Below, piece after piece: positions 40,864 through 63,080 of a stretch of DNA of 64,000 bases. Position numbers and translations under genes: made by a program. Origin of the DNA: Calothrix sp. FI2-JRJ7 (GTDB lineage: Bacteria > Cyanobacteriota > Cyanobacteriia > Cyanobacteriales > Nostocaceae). The notes beneath the pieces are model-generated. The model was not told the DNA's origin, did no database searches, and saw only the letters and a program-made list of their open reading frames with translations. The stretch is taken from NCBI GenBank assembly GCA_019359675.1, contig JAHHGX010000091.1:310001-374000 (forward strand). Reading direction: 5' to 3'. Every line of letters starts with the position of its first letter. Position 1 is the stretch's first letter.

Positions 40864-43222
<2,359 letters not shown>

Positions 43223-60447: not shown

Positions 60448-61044
60448 TTGACTGAGGCGCCACTCTCCAAGTTATCTACATGTGACGGACGTTCGCGCGT
60501 GATTGATGCGGCAGAGCGATTGTTTCGTGCGCGCGGATATAGTAATGTAACAATGCGAGATATTGCTAAAGAGGTAGGTATTCGACAAGCATCGCTGTAC
60601 TATCATTTCGAGAGCAAGGAGCAACTATATGTAGCTGTTACTGAGCTAGAGTTTGAACATCATCACAAAGGTTTACAAAATGCAATACAACAACAAGATA
60701 ATTTACGCACGCAGCTAAATTGTGCAGCAAAGTGGTTTCTTTCTCAACCTCCTGTGCATCTTCTAAGTATTCTGCACACCGATATGCCATGTTTAAGTGA
60801 AGAAAATCTTAAGAAGTTGTCGGCGAGTTGTCGTAGATGTATATTTATCCCTGTACAGCAAATGTTTGAACTAGCACAGCAAAAAGGCGAGATTCGTAAT
60901 TGTCGTGCTAATGTACTAGCTGGATTTTTCTTATCGGTGATGGAAAGTATTCCAATGGTGATATCTGGAAACGAAGTTGAAGCTAAACAGGTCATAGTTA
61001 ATGAAATGATAGATGTTTTGTTAGATGGACTGACCCCTAAATAA
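60448..61044 (+). CDS. TetR-family regulator upstream of the Rieske-flavoprotein gene
   Basis: 198 residues from a TTG start (no ATG occurs before the DNA-binding helices). The HTH is well formed: VIDAAERLFRARGYSNVTMR and DIAKEVGIRQASLYYHFESK. The C-terminal part is the ligand-binding region with CLSEENLKKLSASCRRCIFI. It lies 86 bases before the Tat-Rieske-flavoprotein gene on the same strand with a palindrome in between, so it probably controls that gene and itself. Ligand unknown. Confidence 0.9.
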   Translation: MTEAPLSKLSTCDGRSRVIDAAERLFRARGYSNVTMRDIAKEVGIRQASLYYHFESKEQLYVAVTELEFEHHHKGLQNAIQQQDNLRTQLNCAAKWFLSQPPVHLLSILHTDMPCLSEENLKKLSASCRRCIFIPVQQMFELAQQKGEIRNCRANVLAGFFLSVMESIPMVISGNEVEAKQVIVNEMIDVLLDGLTPK

Positions 61045-61057
61045 TTTTTTTCGCCTT

Positions 61058-61077
61058 TACCTACCAATTGATAGGTA
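61058..61077. promoter_or_regulatory. Palindrome before Rieske-flavoprotein gene, TetR operator candidate
   Basis: TACCTACCAATTGATAGGTA: arms TACCTA and TAGGTA about an 8-base AT-rich centre. It lies between the TetR stop (61044) and the flavoprotein ATG (61131). This is the usual design of a TetR operator. No second copy before the TetR gene was found. Confidence 0.7.
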
Positions 61078-61130: not shown

Positions 61131-63080
61131 ATGACTACGCTTTCAAACTTGCCAGAAACTCCAATTTCTCGTCGAACTTTATTAAAATTATTTGGTGTTG
61201 GTACTGTTGCGGGAGTAATGGGGTATTCACGATTTGTTAAACCCAAACCAACGGTATTTCAAAAAGATACTCTCTCGTTGCCGTTTAAATTAAATCAACC
61301 TAAGACTGCTGTGATAGTTGGTGGAGGTTTAGCTGGTTTAGCTTGTGCATACGAATTGAGTCAAAGGGGATTTGCGGTAACTTTACTTGAAAAATCTCCG
61401 CAGTTTGGAGGTAAAATTGCTAGTTGGCAGGTTAATGTCGGCGCCGATGAATTTAGAATGGAACATGGGTTTCATGGATTTTTTCCGCAATATTATAATT
61501 TAAATAGTTTAGTTAAAGATTTAAACGCTACAGATAACTTTCAATCGTTAAATTTTTATTCGCTCGTTTACCGCGAAAACTATAAACCAGAGGTATTTCG
61601 TCCCAGCAGTTCAGCTTTTCCGTGGAATATTGTTGATTTAGCAATTGCTTCACCAAATCGCTTAAAGTGGGGGATAAATTTAACAAAGATTAAACATTTA
61701 CAGGTATTTCAAGCAATAGGTGGATTCGAGCGTGAAAAGAATTATCAACGTTTTGATAATATTTCGGTTGCTGATTGGGTAGCAAAAGATTTTCCTCAAG
61801 GTTTGTATGACTTATACTTTTTACCTTTTGCCAAGTCAAGTTTGAATGCACCTGATTTAATGAGTGTGGGAGAATTAATGCAGTTCTTCCACTTTTATTT
61901 TTTTGGTAACCCCGAAGGATTAGCTTTTAATGGTACTAAAAATGATATGGGTACTAGTTTAGTGCAACCAATTGTTGATGCAATAAAAAGTGAAGGTGGT
62001 CAAGTTGTTACGAATGCAATTGTTAGTCAAATTAAAGCCGAAAATAACAGCGTTAATTCTCTGACGTATCAAGTGGGTAGCGGCGCCAGTGATGTACCAT
62101 TTTCTGTAAAGCGTAATCATATTGTTGCCGATAATAGCAAGATAGAATATTTTGGCGCCGCAGACGAGGTGTTCGCAGTGGCAGAAAATAGTCAAGAAGC
62201 TATCTCGCTAACTTGTACTCACCAAGGGTGTACCGTAAAAATGGCAGAGGATGGTAAATTTCACTGTCCTTGTCATGGTGCAGTATTTGCAGCAGATGGT
62301 AAAGTCCTCAAAGGTCCAGCAGAAAGAGATTTAGCCAAGTTTGAAATAAAAGGGCGCCCTCAGAAAGGTTACAGTGACGAGTTACAATTAGTTGCTATTA
62401 AACCGGAAACTGTGAAACCAGAGACGGTTGTAGCAGATTACTATATATTTGCCACTGATGTACCGGGAGTGCAACACCTTTTCAAACGTTTAGATGGAGA
62501 CGTTAATCAAAAATCACGCGAGCAAATCGAAAAGTTGAGCATCGCAGACCCCTTTGCAGTATGTCGCTTTTGGTTCGACCGTGACTTTGCTTGGGAACAA
62601 AGCAATTTTACATCGCTATCTGGTTACGCACTCACAGACAGCATTACTTTATATCACCGTATCCAGCAGCAATTTATCGACTGGTCGCAACGTACAGGTG
62701 GTAGTGTCGTTGAGTTACATGCTTATTGCTATAAAGAGAAAGAGTTTCCGACTCAATCCGCACTGCTCGCGACTTTTGAGCAGGAACTGTATGATATTGT
62801 TCCTGAACTCAAGCAAGCTAATATCCTGCACCGTGAACTAGTCAACCAAAAAAACTTTTCTGGATATCCACCTAATAGTTACGCAGAACGTCCCGAAACT
62901 CGTAGTAATATTAATAACTTAATTTATGCAGGCGATTGGGTTAAAATGCCTTTCCCGTGCGGTTTAATGGAGCGTGCTGTCAGTAGTGGTTTGTTAGCAG
63001 CAAACGAAATTTTACACAGCGAAGGGCTACAAAGACGTGAAATTCTATCGGTAAATCCAGAGGGTTTATTAGAAATTTAA
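61131..63080 (+). CDS. Tat-signal FAD amine-oxidase/desaturase-like flavoprotein with inserted Rieske [2Fe-2S] domain
   Basis: 649 residues. The N-terminus has a twin-arginine motif SRRTLLKLFGVG (13-24) and a hydrophobic stretch, so export through the Tat route with a folded cofactor is likely. FAD-binding motif TAVIVGGGLAGLACAYEL (about 59-76), then EKSPQFGGKIASW and MEHGFHGFFPQYYNL, typical of phytoene-desaturase and squalene-dehydroxylase relatives. A Rieske domain is inserted near 330-405: ligands C362 and H364 (TCTHQGCT), C379 and H382 (HCPCHG), plus the two cysteines C367 and C381 that form the Rieske disulfide. Amine-oxidase text resumes: YYIFATDVPGVQHLFKRL and IYAGDWVKMPFPCGLMERAV. 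It probably oxidises a terpenoid or carotenoid-like substrate at the thylakoid lumen or periplasm; the substrate is unknown. Confidence 0.9.
   Translation: MTTLSNLPETPISRRTLLKLFGVGTVAGVMGYSRFVKPKPTVFQKDTLSLPFKLNQPKTAVIVGGGLAGLACAYELSQRGFAVTLLEKSPQFGGKIASWQVNVGADEFRMEHGFHGFFPQYYNLNSLVKDLNATDNFQSLNFYSLVYRENYKPEVFRPSSSAFPWNIVDLAIASPNRLKWGINLTKIKHLQVFQAIGGFEREKNYQRFDNISVADWVAKDFPQGLYDLYFLPFAKSSLNAPDLMSVGELMQFFHFYFFGNPEGLAFNGTKNDMGTSLVQPIVDAIKSEGGQVVTNAIVSQIKAENNSVNSLTYQVGSGASDVPFSVKRNHIVADNSKIEYFGAADEVFAVAENSQEAISLTCTHQGCTVKMAEDGKFHCPCHGAVFAADGKVLKGPAERDLAKFEIKGRPQKGYSDELQLVAIKPETVKPETVVADYYIFATDVPGVQHLFKRLDGDVNQKSREQIEKLSIADPFAVCRFWFDRDFAWEQSNFTSLSGYALTDSITLYHRIQQQFIDWSQRTGGSVVELHAYCYKEKEFPTQSALLATFEQELYDIVPELKQANILHRELVNQKNFSGYPPNSYAERPETRSNINNLIYAGDWVKMPFPCGLMERAVSSGLLAANEILHSEGLQRREILSVNPEGLLEI

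Follow-up and report, generated by a model that had tools for sequence, protein, structure and literature searches.

A probable cruE gene of Calothrix encodes a carotenoid flavoenzyme with an internal Rieske domain

We analyzed a 64,000-nucleotide stretch of the genome of Calothrix sp. FI2-JRJ7 (contig JAHHGX010000091.1, positions 310,001 to 374,000; here called the window) and conclude that an open reading frame near its end is very probably cruE. The encoded enzyme would be a carotenoid ring desaturase/methyltransferase, exported by twin-arginine translocation (Tat) and dependent on flavin adenine dinucleotide (FAD), that converts the beta-rings of beta-carotene into aromatic chi-rings, the first committed step of synechoxanthin synthesis. 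The evidence consists of the domain content of the protein, its conservation, an architecture common to it and the chi-ring CrtU of Thiodictyon, and its co-occurrence with a Rieske oxygenase; a chi-ring product in Calothrix is predicted from these sequence data. The point of interest is what a Rieske domain does within an enzyme of this kind. The gene and its parts are as follows.

61131-63080, + strand: CruE/CrtU-type carotenoid ring desaturase/methyltransferase; open reading frame called with an ATG start, 649 amino acids; assigned by Pfam and homology
61167-61223, + strand: twin-arginine motif (SRRTLLK) and hydrophobic stretch, codons 13-31; from conservation in the alignment
61314-61523, + strand: FAD-binding Rossmann motif (NAD_binding_8), codons 62-131, at the start of the Amino_oxidase domain; Pfam
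62139-62342, + strand: Rieske [2Fe-2S] domain, codons 337-404; PF00355, E 6.3e-11, and ligand conservation
62928-62990, + strand: C-terminal segment AGDWVKMPFPCGLMERAVSSG, codons 600-620, most positions invariant; from the alignments

Domain content, conservation and family of the protein

Pfam recognizes the Amino_oxidase domain in two stretches of the 649-residue protein (the best at residues 67-316, E 3.6e-39), and the matches to Amino_oxidase, NAD_binding_8 and Rieske all score above the curated cut-offs and far beyond chance. The Rieske ligands are C362, H364, C379 and H382, accompanied by an extra cysteine pair, C367 and C381; at the N-terminus, R14 and R15 lie within SRRTLLKLFG. In sequence comparisons the flavin part comes closest to 5mog, a phytoene desaturase of rice (E 3e-20), and the Rieske part most resembles the Rieske proteins of the cytochrome b6f complex. 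The initial annotation had described a Tat N-terminus and a desaturase-type FAD fold with a complete Rieske motif inserted in it, and both the Pfam matches and the residues themselves bear this out. The conserved C-terminal segment we take to be the second FAD contact of such a fold.

The best 80 of 300 stretches found when named genomes were scanned for relatives were kept; all have cyanobacterial titles and are 67-96% identical to the window protein, the closest among them coming from Calothrix and Dulcicalothrix (96%). An alignment of 98 rows was built from the window, its own copy (L001), these 80 named loci and 16 further loci that partly duplicate the named set, with 13 reverse-oriented further loci skipped. 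C362, H364, C367, C379 and H382 are kept in 98 of 98 rows, and R14 and R15 in 97, the remaining row (L083) being cut by a contig end. In a 61-row alignment all six cysteine and histidine positions, C381 included, are invariant, as are both arginines. Of the 80 named proteins, 79 have an arginine pair near the N-terminus (first 80 residues) and 78 a [ST]RRx-hydrophobic motif, as in Tat substrates; the hydrophobic stretch after the motif was computed for the window protein alone. An AxA sequence lies within residues 19-45 in only 23 of the 80, which suggests an uncleaved N-terminal anchor. The expectation that the architecture would recur with its Tat motif and ligands was thus confirmed in both alignments, and for the N-terminal motif in the named proteins; no aligned row has lost the ligands, and the recurrence extends to a purple sulfur bacterium, described below.

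At E<=1e-60 the protein is encoded in 65 of 386 cyanobacterial genomes, belonging to 38 of 143 genera. All 65 matches span the Rieske region, six of them as two pieces, with the ligands read only where the locus was fetched. One of these genes (G228:C64:22713-24625) consists of two overlapping pieces in different frames (query residues 12-260 and 253-649, in open frames of 305 and 412 amino acids), either a natural split or a frameshift. Two others (G051:C19 and G062:C16) have about 30 extra codons directly before the Rieske domain; the match breaks at 332/336-337, and the open frame is 714 amino acids long. No relative was found in viral contigs scanned with the family profile, and Rieske proteins were numerous in a PF00355 search of 21 related genomes.

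The family assignment draws on more distant relatives. A search of plasmids gave 10 records: Calothrix NIES-4105, Thiodictyon syntrophicum and 8 Streptomyces. The gene on the plasmid of T. syntrophicum Cad16 (L126:12001-13905) adjoins crtY, and the gene order of the surrounding carotenoid cluster agrees with the crtEC-cruSO-crtYU arrangement given in a passage of PMC10604819. Its product, CrtU, aligns with the window protein over 621 amino acids, near full length, at 31.6% identity. Like the window protein, it has a twin-arginine N-terminus (KRRIFLRN) followed by Amino_oxidase and Rieske domains (Pfam) in the same order and place, with CTHMGC...CPCHG at the matching insert site. Excerpts of PMC5944118 and PMC10604819 report CrtY and CrtU as the makers of the okenone chi-ring in Thiodictyon. 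The two proteins differ in sequence, as the identity indicates, and in that okenone is made there from gamma-carotene (PMC10604819, in the same excerpt).

A Streptomyces griseofuscus protein of 515 amino acids, which we assign as an isorenieratene-type CrtU from its carotenoid cluster context, is 31.5% identical to the window protein over 496 amino acids. It has the same flavin fold; unlike the window protein, this one of the 8 Streptomyces matches lacks, in the alignment, the Rieske insert, which in the window protein spans roughly residues 314-433. Arginine pairs occur in its arginine-rich start with no hydrophobic stretch after them, and by eye there is no Tat-like signal.

Published labels point the same way. 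In Synechococcus sp. PCC 7002, we take A1248 to be the locus tag of cruE. A table of PMC7880944 lists A1248 as crtU, beta-carotene desaturase, with sll0254 as homologue, and CruE and CruH figure as enzymes of synechoxanthin synthesis in passages of PMC9958174 and PMC11857680; the latter gives Synechococcus sp. PCC 7002 and Anabaena sp. PCC 7120 as producers of this carotenoid. Compared through such labels and not through its sequence, CruE of PCC 7002 resembles the window protein in annotated function, cyanobacterial distribution, a CruH-like partner and thylakoid or lumen association; it differs in that the Calothrix gene is linked to a TetR gene and not to its CruH candidate. These comparisons support the earlier proposal of a carotenoid-oxidizing flavoenzyme. 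The architecture is known, and our gene adds a member to the CruE/CrtU family. A paralogue on plasmid2 of Calothrix sp. NIES-4105 (L127:8001-9953, 64.6% identical) is already annotated as 'putative phytoene dehydrogenase Rieske iron-sulfur component'; it lies directly before a carotenoid oxygenase gene, a hint of aromatic apocarotenoids. PMC7296061 contains both 'sll0254' and 'phytoene dehydrogenase Rieske'.

On its flavin fold alone, the protein could also be a phytoene desaturase or a hydroxysqualene dehydroxylase (HpnE) that carries an extra domain. HpnE is the best and phytoene desaturase the second NCBIfam match, and 5mog is the best fold match. We nevertheless consider this extremely improbable, since HpnE reaches 148 bits against a cut-off of 283 (TIGR03467) and phytoene desaturase 98 bits against 569 (TIGR02731), and the partner profile described below indicates synechoxanthin. 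The true CrtP, scoring 836 bits, is encoded elsewhere in the window (41780-43222). It belongs to a pair of genes on the - strand, crtB (phytoene synthase) and crtP (15-cis-phytoene desaturase), which together span 40864-43222, share a 17-base overlap and are separated from cruE by about 18 kb.

Partner oxygenase and location

Of the named loci, 73 extend at least 1.5 kb downstream of cruE. In 18 of these 73 a Rieske oxygenase of about 350-380 amino acids is encoded 3' of cruE in the same direction, in 13 of the 18 within 300 bp; loci under 8 kb were unclustered, so the count is a lower bound. The Calothrix ortholog lies outside the window (C79:166789-167802, 78% identity; next paralogue 35%). 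Orthologs are present at E<=1e-90 in 65 of the 386 cyanobacterial genomes, and when the lists were compared by eye these proved identical to the 65 cruE-positive genomes, with both E-value thresholds being our own choice and the genomes not being independent samples. In genus g16, four genomes carry both genes and at least one carries neither. This exact co-occurrence across 38 genera is strong evidence that the two proteins serve one pathway.

The oxygenase has a Rieske motif, CPH...CAYH, and a D-x2-H-x3-H stretch, and its best NCBIfam match, below the cut-off, is the 4beta-methylsterol monooxygenase SdmA (2.9e-53). SdmA oxidizes a sterol methyl group. CruH, according to a passage of PMC8342508, oxidizes a methyl group of renierapurpurin to a carboxylic acid. 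We infer that the oxygenase is probably CruH, the partner expected for synechoxanthin, which would act after CruE and oxidize the ring methyl toward a carboxylic acid.

The N-terminus suggests that CruE faces the lumen or periplasm and is held there by an uncleaved anchor. The lumen-side location proposed earlier fits a proteome table in PMC7880944, in which A1248, the protein labeled crtU in PCC 7002, is among those enriched by the lumen-side label PsbU-APEX2. An excerpt of PMC6878006 places both CruE and CruH in Synechocystis thylakoid membranes.

Several points weigh against this identity and this location. In the same table of PMC7880944, a column that we take to be a signal prediction reads 'None' for A1248, and CruE and CruH were undetected in the Synechocystis proteome of PMC9958174. 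No export signal is evident in the CruH candidate: an arginine pair precedes the domain in 2 of 18 proteins, as VRRLG, which by eye is not Tat-like. With a Tat motif on CruE and none clear on the CruH candidate, the two consecutive enzymes could act on different sides of the membrane, an arrangement that a simple pathway would not explain. In Calothrix, moreover, cruE and the CruH candidate lie on different contigs. The link to the cyanobacterial enzymes that have been tested genetically is an indirect one, through labels and not through the named PCC 7002 or Sll0254 sequences. Finally, a 2006 paper, to judge by its title, reportedly identified Synechocystis Sll0254 as a bifunctional lycopene cyclase/dioxygenase, CrtL-diox.

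The pairing of A1248 with sll0254 in the lumen-proteome table (PMC7880944) would extend this 2006 identity to our gene. Consistent with it, the profile PF05834 matches five places in the Calothrix genome, cruE among them (20.8 bits against a cut-off of 23.4), none above the cut-off, and no CrtL-type cyclase was found, CruA-type cyclases not having been searched. We still regard CrtL-diox as a very improbable identity. Later papers, among them PMC4470828 in a passage, remark that evidence for beta-carotene formation by Sll0254 is lacking. Pfam finds no oxygenase catalytic domain in the 649-residue protein, and Thiodictyon has crtY beside its crtU copy. The 65 of 386 genomes that encode the protein are too few for a general cyclase, and on this distribution we rejected the lycopene cyclase identity.

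The Rieske insert and electron transfer

If the protein is CruE, the desaturase-type fold implies that FAD would accept electrons from ring oxidation; provided that it lies close enough, the Rieske cluster would then relay them one at a time from the flavin to a carrier on the lumen or periplasm side. Such a relay to a carrier is consistent with the Tat motif and the lumen labeling, and an electron relay between the Rieske cluster and FAD is plausible, although unproven. The Rieske part is best matched by models and structures of PetC, the Rieske protein of the cytochrome b6f complex; here the domain lies inside a flavoenzyme. Rieske proteins of Synechocystis are said, in a cited title, to be targeted in a Tat-dependent manner.

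A structure prediction from 61 window and locus sequences gave a weak model, with a mean predicted local distance difference test score (pLDDT) of 61.7, residues 136-275 below 50, and a predicted template modeling (TM) score (pTM) of 0.63. A fold search with this model placed rice phytoene desaturase 5mog first, in a poor superposition (root mean square deviation 22.3, TM score 0.30 by query length). The model gave no distance between cluster and FAD, which leaves room for another view of the same enzyme, equally compatible with CruE: the Rieske domain could be structural or regulatory and take no part in electron transfer during catalysis. The S. griseofuscus CrtU lends weight to this view by lacking the whole insert while keeping the rest. 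It is nonetheless unlikely, because the aligned relatives and the Thiodictyon CrtU have retained the ligands and the extra cysteines, as expected for a working cluster. What the Streptomyces enzyme suggests is that aromatization itself is probably independent of the insert, which more likely sets the electron acceptor or the location than the chemistry. A paper on isorenieratene describes a separate Rieske oxygenase beside crtU.

Returning to the electron relay, we offer a broader proposal tentatively. Carotenoid rings might be aromatized on the lumen or periplasm side in cyanobacteria and purple sulfur bacteria, with the Rieske cluster feeding flavin electrons one by one into the photosynthetic chain at plastocyanin, cytochrome c6 or the b6f complex. 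Photosynthetic electron transport would then drive the reaction, which would not require O2; the Streptomyces CrtU would dispense with the insert by using another acceptor. A literature search by title and start of abstract found no paper on the function of the Rieske insert, which may be discussed elsewhere, subscription papers having been mostly outside that search.

The question has geological weight. Aromatic carotenoids leave fossil biomarkers (renierapurpurane, isorenieratane and okenane) that are used, as an excerpt of PMC9560492 describes, to read ancient oceans, and how the enzyme disposes of its electrons, where it works and whether it needs O2 all bear on that record. A Tat motif and a Rieske insert common to the cyanobacterial and purple sulfur enzymes and absent from one Streptomyces enzyme, together with the exact pairing with an oxygenase among the sampled genomes, turn this into a testable question about electrons and oxygen.

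Upstream regulator and neighboring genes

Directly upstream of cruE lie a regulator gene and a palindrome, both of which the initial annotation had pointed out.

60448-61044, + strand: TetR-family regulator gene; TTG start; PF00440, E 3.4e-19
61058-61077, no strand: palindrome TACCTACCAATTGATAGGTA, probable TetR operator; from sequence, with a near-identical site before the gene in Symplocastrum (L069)

Both are confirmed in the window, and a TetR gene is often linked to cruE elsewhere. Upstream sequence of 1.5 kb or more is present in 73 named loci, and 25 of these have a TetR homologue no more than 1.7 kb upstream, 7 in the same direction and 18 divergent. Where the two genes are codirectional, in these 7 loci and in the window, the palindrome or a close variant that keeps 11-12 of the 12 arm bases precedes cruE, its start lying 33-75 bp ahead of the gene; the group includes the distant Symplocastrum locus L069, whose TetR protein is 51.6% identical. 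With at most one mismatch, the core of the palindrome occurs in one other place in the 8.66-Mb genome, beside a BioU gene. A backward-read control also gave one match, and we take this operator-like site to be a chance occurrence.

The divergent group, with one added locus, has an 18-base intergenic motif in 19 of 19 loci (17 exact, one with 1 mismatch and one with 2), the motif having been derived from these same loci. Among 67 loci in which no TetR gene was detected, it occurs within 4 mismatches in 5 and within 2 in none. Shared ancestry explains part of the motif identity. In the divergent loci the motif frequently lies closer to the start of the TetR gene and may therefore serve autoregulation. 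In the window, the adjacent TetR protein would repress cruE through the palindrome at 61058-61077; control by this regulator is likely from the arrangement of the sequences, and cruE may be inducible.

ABC-2 type transporter genes lie upstream of cruE and divergent from it in a number of loci (L014, L022, L026, L043, L058, L064, L071, L073, L081 and others). Of the 64 named loci that include 4 kb or more of upstream sequence, 34 have a permease cluster and 26 have an ATPase cluster, with one representative of each tested by Pfam. Some of these divergent genes are within 100 bp of cruE, which suggests co-regulation and perhaps a role in carotenoid transport.
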